A stretch of 64,000 nucleotides of DNA from Sulfurimonas sp. CG01_land_8_20_14_3_00_36_23 (GTDB lineage: Bacteria; Campylobacterota; Campylobacteria; Campylobacterales; Sulfurimonadaceae). Positions 47,679-54,809 of the stretch are shown in pieces. The position numbers and the translations under genes were made by a program. Below the pieces are notes generated by a model, which saw only the letters and a list, made by a program, of their open reading frames with translations, did no database searches and was not told the DNA's origin. Where the stretch lies: assembly GCA_002781365.1 (NCBI GenBank), contig PETN01000007.1, positions 1-64,000 on the forward strand. Reading direction: 5' to 3'. Each line of letters opens with the position of its first letter. Within the stretch, counting starts at the first letter, position 1.

Positions 47679-48575
47679 ATGGAACACAGTGAAGAACACG
47701 CATTTGAAATAGATGGGGCAGAAGTTTCATTAAAAGAGCTCATTGCTCTCTACAGAAAAACAAATGTTAAAGAGGCTTTTTTTACGAAAGCTAAACAAAA
47801 AAGAGCGGATGAGCAGAAATTAAAACCTTATCAAGCAGAGCTTATTAAGTTACAAAAATATCTTGAAACAACAAAACAAAAAATGATTATTCTTTTTGAA
47901 GGTCGTGATGCAGCTGGAAAAGGTGGTACGATTAGAAGAATCACTAGATATATGGATGAGAAACATTACCGTGTAGTTGCTCTTGGCAAGCCGACTGAAC
48001 AGCAAAAAAGCCAATGGTTTTACCAAAAATATGTGCAACATTTTCCTACTGCTGGAGAAATTGTTCTCTTTGATAGAAGCTGGTATAATCGAGCGATGGT
48101 TGAATCCGTTTTTAATTTTTGTACTCCCCAAGAGTATGAAAATTTCATGGATGGGGTAAAGGGTTTTGAAAATGACCTTACACGCCATGGAATCATCCTG
48201 ATTAAACTCTACTTTAGTGTTACGAAAGTGGAACAAGCAAGAAGATTTGAGCGACGCAAAAATGATCCACTTAGACAGTGGAAACTGAGCGAAATAGATC
48301 TTCAAGCCCAAGAAAAATGGGATGAATTTACAACTACAAAATACAATATGATTAAGCAGACACATTCTCACAATGCTCCTTGGACAATTATCAGGTCCAA
48401 AGATAAACAAAAAGCAAGAATCGAGTCTTTAAAGGTGATTTTAAACTCTGTGGATTATGATGGAAGGGAAGAGAGTTTAAACTATGCCCTAGACCCTAAG
48501 ATAGTAATATCTGGGGCAAGAGAGATAGAAATTATGGATGCGCAAGTCTTAAGTAGTGGTAAATTTATAGGATAG
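47679..48575 (+). CDS. ppk2: Polyphosphate kinase 2, first copy
   Basis: A 298-residue PPK2-family enzyme that transfers phosphate between polyphosphate and nucleotides. Walker A-like ILFEGRDAAGKGGTIRRITRYM, then EIVLFDRSWYNRAMVE (Walker B region) and the lid FERRKNDPLRQWKLSEIDLQA. It has an N-terminal extension of about 40 residues not seen in the next copy. The genes are divergent from pstC and 14 nt apart from the second ppk2. Direction (NTP-making or polyP-making) cannot be read from the sequence. Confidence 0.92.
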   Translation: MEHSEEHAFEIDGAEVSLKELIALYRKTNVKEAFFTKAKQKRADEQKLKPYQAELIKLQKYLETTKQKMIILFEGRDAAGKGGTIRRITRYMDEKHYRVVALGKPTEQQKSQWFYQKYVQHFPTAGEIVLFDRSWYNRAMVESVFNFCTPQEYENFMDGVKGFENDLTRHGIILIKLYFSVTKVEQARRFERRKNDPLRQWKLSEIDLQAQEKWDEFTTTKYNMIKQTHSHNAPWTIIRSKDKQKARIESLKVILNSVDYDGREESLNYALDPKIVISGAREIEIMDAQVLSSGKFIG

Positions 48576-48589
48576 AGTGTAAAACGATT

Positions 48590-49426
48590 ATGAAAAAAAA
48601 TAAAAAGAGTGACAAAAATAGAGATGGAAAGGTTCAAGTCTGGGTGAAAGAAGAGACCTTAGCATATGACAAGGAGCTCTTAAAACTTCAAGTAGAACTT
48701 CTTAAATTTCAAAACCATGTCAAAGAGCAAGGTCTTAAAATTCTCATGATTTTTGAAGGTCGTGATGCTGCGGGGAAAGGCGGCACGATTAAAAGAATCA
48801 CAGAACATCTCAATCCAAGGGGTGCAAGGGTAGTCGCCTTGGAAAAACCAAGCGACAAAGAGACTACGCAGTGGTATTTTCAAAGATATGTCACCCACTT
48901 GCCTGCAGCTGGAGAGATAGTAATGTTTGACAGGAGTTGGTATAACCGTTCCATGGTTGAGCCTGTTATGGGCTTTTGTACAGAGAGAGAACATCATAAG
49001 TTTTTAAACGATGCACCTAAATTTGAAAAAATGATAGTAGATGAAGATATTAAAATTTTTAAATTTTATTTTTCAGTATCTAAAGCTGAACAGGCAAAAA
49101 GATTTAAAGAGAGAGAAACAGACCCTTTAAAACAGTATAAGTTTTCCGCTGTAGATAAAGAGTCTCAAAAGTTATGGAACGAATACTCACTAGCAAAATT
49201 CATGATGCTTAGCTCAACGCACACTATCGTTGCTCCATGGACAGTTATAAAAAGTGATGACAAAAAAAAGGCGAGAATTAACTGTATAAAACATATACTC
49301 AACTATGTTGACTATCCAGATAAAATCAAAGATAATGAGATAGTTGTTGATAAGGATATTGTTATTTTTGGAAGAGATGAAGCTATAGCTATGGAGAAAA
49401 AGTTTAAATTTTCACTCAAACCATAA
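48590..49426 (+). CDS. ppk2: Polyphosphate kinase 2, second copy
   Basis: A 278-residue PPK2 with MIFEGRDAAGKGGTIKRITEHLNPRGARVVAL, EIVMFDRSWYNRSMVEP and FKERETDPLKQYKFSAVDKESQ. It is a tandem paralog of the preceding gene, and its stop codon abuts the Pho box of pstS by 2 nt. Having two PPK2 genes between pstC and pstS puts polyphosphate metabolism within the phosphate-uptake locus; the two may differ in nucleotide preference. Confidence 0.92.
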   Translation: MKKNKKSDKNRDGKVQVWVKEETLAYDKELLKLQVELLKFQNHVKEQGLKILMIFEGRDAAGKGGTIKRITEHLNPRGARVVALEKPSDKETTQWYFQRYVTHLPAAGEIVMFDRSWYNRSMVEPVMGFCTEREHHKFLNDAPKFEKMIVDEDIKIFKFYFSVSKAEQAKRFKERETDPLKQYKFSAVDKESQKLWNEYSLAKFMMLSSTHTIVAPWTVIKSDDKKKARINCIKHILNYVDYPDKIKDNEIVVDKDIVIFGRDEAIAMEKKFKFSLKP

Positions 49427-49428
49427 GA

Positions 49429-49462
49429 TTGTAATCTGCTTGTAACATTGTAGTTTTATAAT
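49429..49462 (+). promoter_or_regulatory. Pho-box promoter of pstS
   Basis: TTGTAATCTGC and TTGTAACATTG (49429-49450) are adjacent 11-bp direct repeats; 6 nt later comes TATAAT (49457-49462). Same geometry as the pstC and porin promoters. Confidence 0.8.
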
Positions 49463-49495
49463 TTCGCCATCTTAACACTACAAAAGGAAACAACA

Positions 49496-50500
49496 ATGTT
49501 CAAGCGTATCGCTTCTGCTGCTCTTATCGCAGCTGTAACTCTTACTTCATCTTTCGCGGAAGATAAAATCAATGGTGCTGGTGCATCTTTCCCAGCTCCT
49601 GTTTACTATGACTGGGCTTATAACTACAAAGCTGACACTAAAAACAGTGTAAACTACCAATCTATTGGTTCTGGTGGCGGTATCAAACAAATTACTAAAA
49701 GAGTTGTAGATTTTGGTGCAACGGATGCTGCTTTAACTACTTTAAAATTAGCAAAAGCAAATTTATTTCAATTTCCAGCAGTTATTGGTTCAATTGTTGT
49801 TGCTTTCAATGTTGAAGGCATCGCTGATGAGACTTTAAAATTAACGAATGCACAAGTTGCAGATATTTTCGCAGGTAAAATCACTATGTGGAATGACCCA
49901 GCTATCGTAGCTAACAACCAAGGTGTGCAACTTCCAAATCAAAAAATAGTTGTAGTTCACCGTTCAGACGGGTCTGGTACAACTTTTAACTTTACTTACT
50001 ATCTTAGTGAAAGTTCAGAGAACTGGAAAAACAACTATGGAGCAGGTAAAGCAATTGACTGGGCTACAGGTATTGGTGGAAAAGGGAATGAGGGTGTTTC
50101 TAACATAGTAAAACAAACTCCTTATTCAATTGGCTATATTGAAAATGCTTACAAAGAGAAAAACAATCTTTCAGCAGCTGTACTTCAAACTGCAAGCGGT
50201 AAATGGGTAAAAGCAACTGAAGATAACTTCAAAGCTGCTGCAAAGTATGCAACTTGGACAAAAAAGCAACATTTTTACTCTGTTTTAGCACTCCAAGCAG
50301 GTGACACTTCATACCCAATCGTTGCAGCTACATTTATTCTTCTTCCTAGAGAAGGTGGCGAGATGAACAAAAAAGTAATCGCTTTTTATGACTATGCTTT
50401 CAAAAATGGTGACGAATCTGCTAAGAAATTAGGTTACATCCCACTTCCAGAAGAAACTAAAAAAATGATTAGAGAGTATTGGGCAACTAATATTCAATAA
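49496..50500 (+). CDS. pstS: Phosphate-binding protein PstS
   Basis: Periplasmic binding protein of 334 residues with signal peptide 1-21 (TLTSSFA). INGAGASFPAPVYYDWAYNYK, SIGSGGGIKQI, DFGATDAAL and VHRSDGSGTTFNFTYYLS line the phosphate site. It is monocistronic, with a Pho box upstream and a strong terminator downstream, fitting high expression under phosphate limitation. Confidence 0.97.
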   Translation: MFKRIASAALIAAVTLTSSFAEDKINGAGASFPAPVYYDWAYNYKADTKNSVNYQSIGSGGGIKQITKRVVDFGATDAALTTLKLAKANLFQFPAVIGSIVVAFNVEGIADETLKLTNAQVADIFAGKITMWNDPAIVANNQGVQLPNQKIVVVHRSDGSGTTFNFTYYLSESSENWKNNYGAGKAIDWATGIGGKGNEGVSNIVKQTPYSIGYIENAYKEKNNLSAAVLQTASGKWVKATEDNFKAAAKYATWTKKQHFYSVLALQAGDTSYPIVAATFILLPREGGEMNKKVIAFYDYAFKNGDESAKKLGYIPLPEETKKMIREYWATNIQ

Positions 50501-50536
50501 TCCAGAGTTAACATTTCATTTATTCCCCCTCCCTTT

Positions 50537-50577
50537 AAAGAGTTTCGCGTCCTGACCCGCGGAACTCTTTTTTTTTT
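50537..50577 (+). terminator. Strong terminator of pstS
   Basis: AAAGAGTTTCGCG - 8 nt - CGCGGAACTCTTT makes a 13-bp stem with one G-U pair, followed by at least seven T. Confidence 0.93.
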
Positions 50578-50622
50578 AATTTCCTAACCTTTAAAACTTC
50601 AAAAATCAAAAATCAAAATCAT

Positions 50623-50636
50623 TTAGCATGTGGAAA
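50623..50636 (+). repeat. Near-exact copy of the dispersed 14-mer
   Basis: TTAGCATGTGGAAA, one mismatch, in the gap between the pstS terminator and the Pho box of the porin. The same one-base variant occurs at 996-1009. Confidence 0.85.
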
Positions 50637-50671
50637 TATCTACATAAAGAACAACTACTTTAACGTCTGTT

Positions 50672-50705
50672 TTGTAATCATTATGTAACCTAAGCACTTT
50701 ATAAT
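50672..50705 (+). promoter_or_regulatory. Pho-box promoter of the porin gene
   Basis: TTGTAATCATT and ATGTAACCTAA (50672-50693), 6 nt, TATAAT (50700-50705). The match to the pstS promoter in sequence and spacing is close. Confidence 0.8.
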
Positions 50706-50735
50706 GCTGACAACAAAAAAACAAGGAACTCAAAA

Positions 50736-51899
50736 ATGAAAAAAATCGTTTTATCGACTATTGCTGCTATTGCAGTTGGTGTTACTAGCTTAAGTGCAGG
50801 ACAACAGTTTTATGTAAACGAAGACGGACAAGTGTTTACAACTTCTGCGACAGATCGCATAGCAATTGATCAAAAAGAGACGGATGTATTCTCTCATGCT
50901 GATAAACTAAAGTTTAACGGTTTAGCGTATTTAGGTTTAACTAGCACGGACTATAGAGCTGCTGAGAGTTCTAAAGCTGACACAAGCAAGTTTGAACTTC
51001 GTCGTGCTTACTTTCAACTTAAAGCGTATCTTTTAGAAGATAAAAAAAGTTATTACCGTGTAACTATGGATGCGACAAATGTAGCTGGTTACCAAACTGT
51101 TATCCTTAAATACGCTTATCTTTACTTAAATAATGTTTTACCTTTCACAGGTGTTGAGTTAGGTCAAGTTCACCGTCCATGGATTGATTATGAAGAGCAT
51201 AACTCATGGGGTTACCGTGATATTCAAAAAGTATTTGTTGAAGAGAAAAACACAGCACACTTAACAAACTCAGCGGACTTAGGTTTTAACTTCAAAACAA
51301 AAACTAAATATTTTGATAGTGAAATTGGTATGTTCCAAGGTGAGGGTTACCATACTGCAGAAGCAAACAATGATGGTATGTCTTTAGAGTGGAGAGCAAC
51401 TGCACACCTTTTAGGTGTAAATGGTAAAGATAAATTTACAAAAAAAACATATGCTGATGTATCTTTTTATGGTCAATACAATACAAGACATACGGCTGAT
51501 ACTGCGGCAAAATCAGGCTATTCAGATTTAGTATTTGGTGGTTTACATGCAGTATTTAATACGCCAGCATTCCAAATAGCAGGTCAATATATTCTCTCTA
51601 CTGATACATCAGATGTAACTGGCGAAGTATCTAAACAAGCTGGTTCAGGTTACAATGCACATACTATAGCTCGTTTTGGTTCAGACCATCAATATGCTGT
51701 TCTAGGTCGTTATGATTCATGGACTGCTAATAAATTTATTGATGCGGACGAAGTTGAAAACAGAACATATACTCTTGGTGCTTCATGGCAACAAAATGAA
51801 AATGTACAATGGGTAGCAAATGTTACAACTACAGATAATCAAAATAACAGTAGCTTAAATGCTAATATGTACATGCTTACAGCACAAGTAGAGTTCTAG
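50736..51899 (+). CDS. OprP/OprO-like porin, probably phosphate-starvation inducible
   Basis: A 387-residue outer-membrane protein. Signal peptide 1-21 (VTSLSAG). FELRRAYFQLKAYLLEDKKSYYRVTMDATN is the conserved strand pair of phosphate-selective porins (PF07396-like), and the protein ends ...MYMLTAQVEF with the terminal Phe. The Pho box upstream supports a role in anion or phosphate entry. Family assignment is by pattern; substrate selectivity is inferred from regulation. Confidence 0.82.
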   Translation: MKKIVLSTIAAIAVGVTSLSAGQQFYVNEDGQVFTTSATDRIAIDQKETDVFSHADKLKFNGLAYLGLTSTDYRAAESSKADTSKFELRRAYFQLKAYLLEDKKSYYRVTMDATNVAGYQTVILKYAYLYLNNVLPFTGVELGQVHRPWIDYEEHNSWGYRDIQKVFVEEKNTAHLTNSADLGFNFKTKTKYFDSEIGMFQGEGYHTAEANNDGMSLEWRATAHLLGVNGKDKFTKKTYADVSFYGQYNTRHTADTAAKSGYSDLVFGGLHAVFNTPAFQIAGQYILSTDTSDVTGEVSKQAGSGYNAHTIARFGSDHQYAVLGRYDSWTANKFIDADEVENRTYTLGASWQQNENVQWVANVTTTDNQNNSSLNANMYMLTAQVEF

Positions 51900-52134: not shown

Positions 52135-52917
52135 ATGTCTAAAAATTTAATCACTGAAAATATGTATACAACTGTTGATTCTATGGATACTATTTTGCTA
52201 CATGAGTCTGATGGACATAAAATTTATTGGATGGGAATCGAAGAAGAGACAGCATTTAGATGTAATGTCTATCTTATTGAAGATAATGATGAATATATAT
52301 TAGTCGACCCTGGTAGCAGAATCTATCATGAAGAGCTGAAAAAAAGAGTCTCTACCATTGTTGACCCAAAGAAAATCAGTGGGCTTATACTATGCCATCA
52401 AGATTCAGATGTAGCTGCTTCAATGGTTGATTGGCTGGATGTCAATAGTGAAATTCAAATCATTACATCTAAACGTGCGAATGTCTTGCTCCCTTACTAT
52501 GGAAGAAGTGATTACAGCTTTTATGATATCGCAGAGGAAGGGGTGTATACATTTAAAAGTGGGAGAGTCTTGAAATTTATAGAAGCTCCTTTTTTGCATT
52601 TTCCAGGTGCATTTACGACTTTAGATACAACCGCGAACATGCTTTTTTCTGGAGATATATGGGCTGCTTTAGATATAGAGTGGAACTTGGTTGTGAGTGA
52701 TTTTGAAGCACACAAATCCAATATGGATCTTTTTCATATTGATTACATGGCATCCAATGTTGCTTCAAAAGGGTATGCTAGAAAAATAGAAAAAGAGCTT
52801 ATCGAAGCGATACTTCCGCAACATGGCTCAATCATAAATAGTGAAAATATACCAAACGCGATTGAATACTTGAAAAATTTGCAATGTGGTTTAGACATTG
52901 CATACAGTGACCTATAG
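52135..52917 (+). CDS. Diiron O2-binding (ODP/FDP-type) metallo-beta-lactamase-fold protein
   Basis: A 260-residue stand-alone beta-lactamase-fold domain. Metal ligands: H88-x-D90-x-D92 (LCHQDSDVA), H155, D174 and H230. The intervals 92 to 155 (63) and 155 to 174 (19) equal those of flavodiiron proteins; Asp replaces the usual Glu at the second position. No flavodoxin domain follows, as in the ODP sensors that bind O2 reversibly and signal to chemotaxis or transduction proteins. The next gene, 11 nt away, encodes a GGDEF-EAL protein, so this is probably an O2 sensor feeding c-di-GMP. The enzyme alternative (O2 or NO reduction) needs an external flavin donor. Confidence 0.8.
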   Translation: MSKNLITENMYTTVDSMDTILLHESDGHKIYWMGIEEETAFRCNVYLIEDNDEYILVDPGSRIYHEELKKRVSTIVDPKKISGLILCHQDSDVAASMVDWLDVNSEIQIITSKRANVLLPYYGRSDYSFYDIAEEGVYTFKSGRVLKFIEAPFLHFPGAFTTLDTTANMLFSGDIWAALDIEWNLVVSDFEAHKSNMDLFHIDYMASNVASKGYARKIEKELIEAILPQHGSIINSENIPNAIEYLKNLQCGLDIAYSDL

Positions 52918-52928
52918 AAAGTGAAAAT

Positions 52929-54809
52929 ATGTCTGAAGATTTAGAAAGAAAAATCAAAGTTCTTGAGAGAAAGTTACGACTTTTTGAAGAGGCGATGCAT
53001 CAAACGACTGTACTTAGAAAGAAGTATGATGAGGCTAGAAAATCTTTAAAAAGTATGAACACGCAGCTTGAGCAAAAAGTAGTAGAGCGGACACAAAAAG
53101 TTGAAGATGAGCGTCAGTACCTTCAAGCTGTCATCAATAGTGTAGAAAACCCTATTCTAGTCATAAAAGAAGATTATAGTGTTGACCTTATGAATTCATC
53201 TTTGTATAAAAAAATTGATTTTTCTCTTGTTAAAGATGTAAATAATCCGAAGTGTTATGAAGTCTCTTATGGGCGCTCAACTCCTTGTCATCATGATAAT
53301 CACCCATGTCTTCTTCAGAAGGTCTTAGCTACAAAAAAACATGAAAAATCAGTTCATATGTATTTTGATAAAAATGATGAAAAACATTATGTCGAACGCT
53401 CTGCATCACCTCTATTTGATAAAGAAAATAGATGTATAGGAATTATAGAGTCGGCGAATGATGTTACAGAGTATCTAGAAGTACAAGATGAATTACGAGA
53501 ACAAAAAAGTGTATTAGATTTTCAAGCCCATCATGATGCCCTGACAGGATTGCCAAATCGCTTGCTTTTTAATGATCGCTTAAATCAGTCCATTGAAAAG
53601 GCAAAGCGAAACAAGGAGGGTCTCGCAGTTTTTTTTATAGACCTAGATAGGTTTAAAGAGATTAATGACTCTCTAGGACATAAGAGTGGTGATATAGTTT
53701 TACAAGAGGTCTCCTCCAGAATAACATCTATCATAAGAAAAGAAGACACCGTCTCTCGTTTAGGCGGAGATGAGTTTACAATTTTAATGACTGAGTTAAA
53801 CAGAGCGCAAGATGCCTCACTCTTAGCACAGAAAATCTTGGATGTTTTATCTGAGCCGATTAAGATAGAAAAAAACACACTTTATGTATCTAGCAGCATA
53901 GGAATTAGCTTGTTCCCTCAAGATGACACTGATGCTCAAAACCTTTTAAAATACGCAGATGCAGCAATGTATAAAGCTAAAGCAGAAGGACGGAATAATT
54001 TTCAGTTTTACTCTTCTGAAATGACACAAATGGCATTTGAACATGTCGCTATGGAAGCAAGTCTTCGCCAAGGAGTTGATAATGGTGAATTTATCGTTTA
54101 CTATCAACCACAAATCGATGGAGAGTCTGGTCAGTTTCTTGGAATGGAAGCCTTAGTTCGCTGGAATCATCCAACACTCGGCATGGTCTATCCACTTAAG
54201 TTTATTCCATTAGCTGAGGAGATAGGGCTGATTATAGCTTTGGACCGTTTTGTGATGAAAACAGCGATGAAACAGATAGTTGAGTGGTATGCTAAAGGAC
54301 TTAGCCCTGGAGTAATGGCACTCAATTTATCCATGAAACAACTCCATCAAAAAGATTTTATGGATGTTGTTAAAAATATGCTTGAAGAGACACAATGTAA
54401 GCCAGAGTGGATAGAGCTTGAAGTGACTGAGAGCAATATTATGACAAATCCAGAAGATACTATAAAACTTCTTCATCAGCTTACAGATATTGGTATTAAG
54501 CTGGCAATAGATGACTTTGGAACAGGATACTCATCGCTCTCCTATTTAAGCCGATTACCAATAGATAAGCTTAAAATTGACAAATCGTTCATACAAGAGC
54601 TACCATTTCATCAAGAAGATGTTGCTATTACAAGAGCTGTTATCGCTCTTTCTAAAAGTTTAAATCTTAGGGTTATAGCAGAAGGTGTTGAGACGAAAGA
54701 ACAAAAAGATTTTTTAGTTGCAAATGGATGCAAAAGCATTCAAGGGTACTTTTATGCAAGAGCAATGTCCTACGATAATTTAGAAAAAATGTTAACTGCA
54801 ACGAGTTGA
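52929..54809 (+). CDS. Cysteine-rich PAS-GGDEF-EAL c-di-GMP protein
   Basis: A 626-residue cytosolic protein. A coiled coil (1-65), a PAS domain (about 66-185) with C109, C120 and C127 in KCYEVSYGRSTPCHHDNHPC, GGDEF at 279-283 with an I-site RKED (270-273) five residues before it, and EAL at 407-409. The EAL half has N-x-S, EVTE, DDFGTGYS (528-535), K and E residues needed for catalysis, so both halves may be active. It follows the diiron protein directly. The Cys/His cluster could bind a metal, heme or Fe-S centre, so the protein may have its own sensing besides that of the partner. Confidence 0.92.
   Translation: MSEDLERKIKVLERKLRLFEEAMHQTTVLRKKYDEARKSLKSMNTQLEQKVVERTQKVEDERQYLQAVINSVENPILVIKEDYSVDLMNSSLYKKIDFSLVKDVNNPKCYEVSYGRSTPCHHDNHPCLLQKVLATKKHEKSVHMYFDKNDEKHYVERSASPLFDKENRCIGIIESANDVTEYLEVQDELREQKSVLDFQAHHDALTGLPNRLLFNDRLNQSIEKAKRNKEGLAVFFIDLDRFKEINDSLGHKSGDIVLQEVSSRITSIIRKEDTVSRLGGDEFTILMTELNRAQDASLLAQKILDVLSEPIKIEKNTLYVSSSIGISLFPQDDTDAQNLLKYADAAMYKAKAEGRNNFQFYSSEMTQMAFEHVAMEASLRQGVDNGEFIVYYQPQIDGESGQFLGMEALVRWNHPTLGMVYPLKFIPLAEEIGLIIALDRFVMKTAMKQIVEWYAKGLSPGVMALNLSMKQLHQKDFMDVVKNMLEETQCKPEWIELEVTESNIMTNPEDTIKLLHQLTDIGIKLAIDDFGTGYSSLSYLSRLPIDKLKIDKSFIQELPFHQEDVAITRAVIALSKSLNLRVIAEGVETKEQKDFLVANGCKSIQGYFYARAMSYDNLEKMLTATS

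Follow-up and report, generated by a model that had tools for sequence, protein, structure and literature searches.

The stretch of DNA analysed here (the window, 64,000 nucleotides from Sulfurimonas) carries two consecutive open reading frames on the forward strand, which are separated by 11 nt (Table 1). The first one encodes a stand-alone oxygen-binding diiron protein (ODP) and the second one a PAS-GGDEF-EAL protein. When we scanned for promoters and terminators, promoter-like matches were fewer than in shuffled sequences and terminator-like matches were about equally frequent. Just upstream (47679-51899), we recognized by eye a pair of neighboring genes (about 280-300 aa each) that resemble polyphosphate kinase 2 and, after them, one gene for a PstS-like phosphate-binding protein and one for a porin-like protein. 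Judging from these gene products, this segment is likely to be a phosphate cluster.

Table 1. Features of the ODP locus (positions of the window)
Feature	Position	Strand	Basis
Stand-alone ODP, 260 aa, predicted sensor subunit	52135..52917	+	PF19583, PDB matches, AlphaFold/Foldseek, invariant ligands
First ligand motif H88-Q-D90-S-D92, predicted diiron site	52396..52410	+	H/D/D invariant in 58/58 aligned ODPs
PAS-GGDEF-EAL protein, 626 aa, predicted output enzyme	52929..54809	+	Pfam, motif conservation in orthologous partners, shared gene order
Proposed ODP-docking helix, residues ~1-46 of the GGDEF-EAL protein	52929..53066	+	Alignments, profile search, helix prediction

Comparison of the upstream gene product with Pfam identified the ODP family (PF19583, residues 41-231, E 1.7e-58) with a score of 198.1 bits, which compares with a curated cut-off of 27.2. 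This family and its parent Lactamase_B were the only ones detected. The Pfam scan found neither a rubredoxin domain nor the C-terminal flavodoxin (FMN) domain that characterizes flavodiiron proteins, and the chain stops at residue 260. Among the PDB sequence matches, the ODP entries 6qrq (5e-39) and 6qnm (8.9e-34) ranked above the flavodiiron proteins. A similar order was obtained at the structural level, where the AlphaFold model of the protein (pLDDT 88.6) matched the crystals of T. maritima and T. denticola ODP. In Foldseek, ranks 1-10 were all ODP chains (TM 0.80-0.91) and flavodiiron proteins came after them. All six predicted diiron ligands (H88, D90, D92, H155, D174, H230) are present, and none of them varies in an alignment of 58 ODPs, which comprises 19 clade members (19/19) and 39 other ODPs (39/39), those of T. 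denticola and T. maritima among them. The same is true for Gln229 of the ODP-type site (58/58). In addition, the alignment revealed residues that distinguish the window clade from other ODPs (A40, R42, R62, Y127, E150, D180, A210, G213, A242, Y245, Y257). The spacing of the ligands (H-x-D-x-D-62-H-18-D) agrees with that of flavodiiron proteins. The first motif corresponds to the ODP version, in which Asp replaces Glu at the second ligand and Val93 replaces the following His. By family model, fold, and ligands, the window protein is a true ODP, in which the ligand set H-x-D-x-D, H, D, Q-H occurs without a flavodoxin domain. These data agree with the initial annotation, which had assigned the protein to the ODPs because of six diiron ligands at flavodiiron spacing and a missing flavodoxin domain.

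Flavodiiron proteins (ROO, FprA, NorV) have the metallo-beta-lactamase-type diiron domain in common with ODP, but they carry a flavodoxin domain and reduce O2 or NO. A separate protein of flavodiiron length (C13, open frame of 414 aa) is encoded elsewhere in the window's genome. With this fold and with O2/NO reductases among its relatives, the ODP might itself be an enzyme, either a scavenger of O2, NO, or peroxide or a metallo-hydrolase, which is merely co-expressed with the c-di-GMP gene. We consider this explanation very improbable, since the protein lacks a flavodoxin or rubredoxin domain for electrons and since its first motif does not contain the HxHxDH that zinc hydrolases need. Moreover, nearly all partners are signalling proteins with a shared N-terminal helix (see below) and no tested unrelated open reading frame scores comparably. 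Because of the ligands and the missing electron-transfer domain, both the metallo-hydrolase and the O2/NO reductase readings were rejected.

In the product of the downstream gene, Pfam detected a PAS (1e-7), a GGDEF (1.2e-53), and an EAL domain (2.3e-74). The cyclase motif RLGGDEF (GGDEF at residues 279-283) and the I-site RKED (RxxD, residues 270-273) are intact and so are the phosphodiesterase motifs EALVRW, DDFGTG, KIDKSF, and AEGVET. Since the catalytic motifs of a bifunctional GGDEF-EAL protein are all intact, the partner could be both a diguanylate cyclase and a phosphodiesterase. Open reading frame coordinates, Pfam domains, and motifs thus confirm that a GGDEF-EAL gene directly follows the ODP gene, as had been proposed. 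This gene order recurs in G030, G371, G026, and others. In the PAS domain of the partner (residues ~103-130, window 53235-53320), cysteines of the pattern KCYEV...PC......C are conserved in the orthologues and possibly constitute a second redox or metal input. With such a PAS domain in the window partner, ODP may be just one of two inputs.

Altogether, 23 distinct loci of the ODP clade were collected from Campylobacterota, Gammaproteobacteria, and Zetaproteobacteria. They comprise the window, L064 (G030), L036 (G286), L108 (G388), L136, L140, L141, and 16 loci from a GTDB scan. L140 and L141 originate from a search directed at Gammaproteobacteria, and duplicates across searches (e.g., L079/G371, L081/G026, L082/G425, L086/G015) were counted once. 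In 22/23 loci, the gene that follows in the same orientation either overlaps the ODP gene or starts no more than about 20 nt from it. At L065, for which all frames were listed, a GGDEF gene lies 4 nt downstream of ODP. The ODP of L079, which is located in a MAG of the window's genus Sulfurimonas (G371), is 73% identical to the window ODP. The exception is L093, where ODP has no partner and is followed by tgt (named by eye) in convergent orientation. In related Arcobacter-like genomes, the tgt-adjacent site contains ODP followed by helix-GGDEF (L036) or by helix-PAS (L090). Because 22 of the 23 loci keep an adjacent partner, the two genes do not stand apart in most relatives, and the conservation of the gene pair, for which the initial annotation had suggested a check, was borne out within the clade. 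When 397 sampled Campylobacterota genomes were searched with an ODP-clade profile, six of them scored >430 bits, the next ODP reached 283 bits, and ODP-kinase fusions about 190 bits or less. The 283-bit protein (L109:1495-2307, G428) is a divergent orphan, which is positioned between the window clade and the other ODPs and has no helix partner. With six of 397 genomes, the pair is rare and therefore not general in the phylum; it is uncommon in Campylobacterota yet spread over several lineages.

The output domains of the 22 partners vary, and c-di-GMP enzymes are most frequent among them (13/22). Six partners are GGDEF-EAL proteins (window, L064, L079, L080, L081, L091), and in the assembled sequences of L080 and L081 the frame is interrupted. 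Seven carry GGDEF without EAL (L082, L084, L086, L092, L036, L140 with PAS, L141 with GAF), eight are histidine kinases (L083, L136, L085, L087, L088, L089, L094, L108), and a single one (L090) consists of PAS plus coil without catalytic domain. The kinases of L136 and L108 and the GGDEF domain of L084 were assigned by sequence similarity or motif. A c-di-GMP-type response regulator is also present at three of the eight kinase loci, namely REC-HD-GYP at L083 and REC-GGDEF at L108 and L136, the last of which is incomplete at the locus end and a weak match. L036, L082, L086, and L092 are merely composed of helix/coil and GGDEF, and thus, ODP is the only evident sensor there. According to the ODP tree, which has long branches and several open deep forks, the output switched between c-di-GMP and kinase at least four times inside the clade. 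No chemoreceptor was found as partner among the clade members, and the window ODP is not a chemotaxis-coupled ODP in this respect. The dual c-di-GMP enzyme proposed by the initial annotation is present in the window, but it is not a conserved feature, since the output varies and GGDEF-EAL accounts for 6/22 partners. Similarly, its suggestion that the sensor fold acts on c-di-GMP instead of chemotaxis is strengthened as far as the partners are non-chemoreceptors, but with kinases in 8/22 cases the output would not be c-di-GMP alone. The conserved feature is ODP together with a helix-tagged output, and dual GGDEF-EAL proteins are one form of it. As a separate observation, one Arcobacteraceae MAG (G437) harbors two ODP-kinase pairs (L131 and, as second pair, L136). 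Each of these two loci has an additional histidine kinase gene, which terminates immediately ahead of ODP, and a response regulator gene located after the partner kinase.

Despite their different outputs, all 22 partners have the first ~45 residues in common. In the window partner, residues 3-72 are predicted to form one helix, and among 18 aligned partners Leu12 and Gln25 (window numbering) are invariant at constant spacing. When a helix profile built on 17 partners (window left out) was run against the window's genome, the window partner alone matched (6.5e-13) and the next best hit was at 0.2. Seven of the 397 Campylobacterota genomes matched this profile and six of them are exactly those with an ODP-clade score of >430 bits, although these helix and ODP profile figures are descriptive and not strict probabilities because the genomes are kin. 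The seventh match (G301, 4e-4) lies in an unrelated gene and was rejected as a coincidental coiled coil. Partners outside the profile also carry the helix (L136, 52.8 bits; L108, 39.7; L141, 39.2; L140, 30.3), and the best unrelated open reading frame among 676 scored 20.0 bits. In ODP-kinase fusions, the profile did not detect the helix (5.4 bits or less). Since the helix tracks the separate ODP and not the output type, and since it is missing in the fusions, its distribution fits the signature of a docking segment.

Alternatively, the shared helix may be an inherited coiled-coil linker, and the partners would then be controlled by their own PAS domains without any contact to ODP. The generic coiled-coil composition of the helix and the PAS domain of the window partner are consistent with such a scenario. 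However, several partners have no sensor domain apart from the helix, and the helix has persisted through the four or more changes of output class that the ODP tree implies. Its absence from the ODP-kinase fusions, in which docking is unneeded, points in the same direction. Thus, we regard a mere linker as unlikely and prefer the docking function.

The window's genome encodes a second, different stand-alone ODP (L069; G000 C52, 3833-6128), which has relatives at L070-L078. These proteins are encoded directly after a ~500-aa REC protein with a C-terminal RxxxR...DxSxxA motif. A chemoreceptor neighbor of these other stand-alone ODPs (G000 C52) was rejected because the preceding gene encodes this REC protein, and a PilZ domain at its C-terminus, for which the motif was considered, was not confirmed by Pfam. 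It is this L069-L078 branch of the ODP tree, and not the window clade, with which the chemotaxis-related ODPs from T. denticola and T. maritima group. ODPs fused to other domains are widespread in Campylobacterota (L022-L033, L040-L057). Of these, L027 was scanned and proved to be an ODP-histidine kinase; the remaining ones look similar, and some of them are longer. A natural ODP-GAF-like-GGDEF fusion (L029:126-1865) represents a cis version of the sensor-output pair. Both types of fusion involve the same sensor domain and related outputs as the window pair, but here the sensor is fused in cis.

The association of the helix with a separate ODP, the switches of the output, the partners without sensor domain, and the c-di-GMP-type response regulator genes led us to interpret the unit as a diiron sensor that acts in trans. 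In the window, the two genes probably form a unit, in which the stand-alone ODP docks in trans on the helix and shifts c-di-GMP turnover. In such a mechanism, the diiron site of ODP would be one of those at which O2 is bound reversibly as a peroxo adduct, and the contact with the GGDEF-EAL protein would be made in trans via the N-terminal helix of the latter. Depending on whether ODP is oxygenated, iron-loaded, or in the apo form, the register of the coiled coil or the geometry of the dimer may then change. As the coiled coil would run via PAS to GGDEF and EAL, c-di-GMP synthesis could shift relative to c-di-GMP breakdown, and the sign of this regulation (O2 raising or lowering c-di-GMP) is not predictable from the sequence. 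The unit is supported by the 22/23 loci at which adjacent same-strand partners share the helix on unrelated outputs and by the natural fusion of ODP with GAF-like and GGDEF domains in the same family (L029). On the other hand, the helix could be a dimerization coil that was retained by shared descent and is not a docking site, L093 keeps ODP without partner, and the partner at L090 has no catalytic domain.

As to the ligand of ODP, O2 is most likely, and NO or iron are possible. The same trans-acting architecture might respond to nitric oxide, iron availability, or redox state instead of O2. The ODP ligand set is common to flavodiiron NO reductases, many carriers probably live in anoxic or sulfidic habitats, judging from their record names, and T. 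denticola ODP reportedly senses Fe(II) as well as O2, according to the title of a 2019 paper by Muok et al. However, structure 6r9n shows that O2 is stably bound as a peroxo adduct in the closest solved relatives, and nothing in the ODP sequence favors NO over O2. We therefore consider a signal other than O2 a possible but distinctly less probable variant and retain O2 as the preferred ligand.

The ODPs of T. denticola and T. maritima (6qnm, 6r9n, 6qrq, 6qwo; Muok et al. 2019) share family, fold, and ligands with the window ODP, and they are likewise separate sensor subunits serving a genetically coupled partner. Their partner is a cytoplasmic chemoreceptor/CheA, whereas ODPs of the window clade are paired with helix-bearing c-di-GMP enzymes or histidine kinases. 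The gene of T. denticola ODP is coupled to a receptor that lacks sensing and membrane modules (PMC7666581), and ODP has been described as an auxiliary subunit in contact with the receptor and with the ability to bind both iron and O2 (PMC6978683). By analogy, the best functional parallel of the window unit is H-NOX (e.g., Shewanella woodyi SWOO_2751/SWOO_2750), which is also a stand-alone gas sensor acting in trans and whose genes usually adjoin those of histidine kinases or DGC/PDE enzymes (PMC8738867). However, H-NOX has a haem fold with NO as ligand and is unrelated to ODP. Non-haem diiron sensing is also tied to c-di-GMP turnover in the hemerythrin proteins VcBhr-DGC and Bhr-HD-GYP of Ferrovum (PMC8846402), but there the hemerythrin is fused in cis and differs from ODP in iron site and fold. 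A census of c-di-GMP sensors lists haem-PAS, globin, and hemerythrin for oxygen or redox and contains no occurrence of ODP (PMC8846402). Our literature search, with the original ODP paper outside its scope, found no paper on ODP acting on c-di-GMP or kinases.

Taken together, the best reading is that ODP, much like H-NOX, probably switches c-di-GMP enzymes or kinases in trans. We also lean, by a narrower preference, towards a portable two-part system, in which the diiron O2 sensor ODP acts in trans via a short transferable docking helix. During evolution, such a system would have been combined with diguanylate cyclases, with dual GGDEF-EAL enzymes, and with histidine kinases, and this in Campylobacterota as well as in several lineages of proteobacteria. 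ODPs have been published as chemotaxis sensors. If our reading is true, the ODP diiron sensor would also control c-di-GMP turnover and two-component kinases, and one exchangeable helix would mediate both outputs. The 260-aa sensor and the 236-aa cyclase of Sulfuricurvum would provide a small soluble test case for a gas sensor switching a cyclase across a protein interface. Such a system would bear on how O2 is coupled to sessile or motile life in bacteria of oxic-anoxic interfaces.
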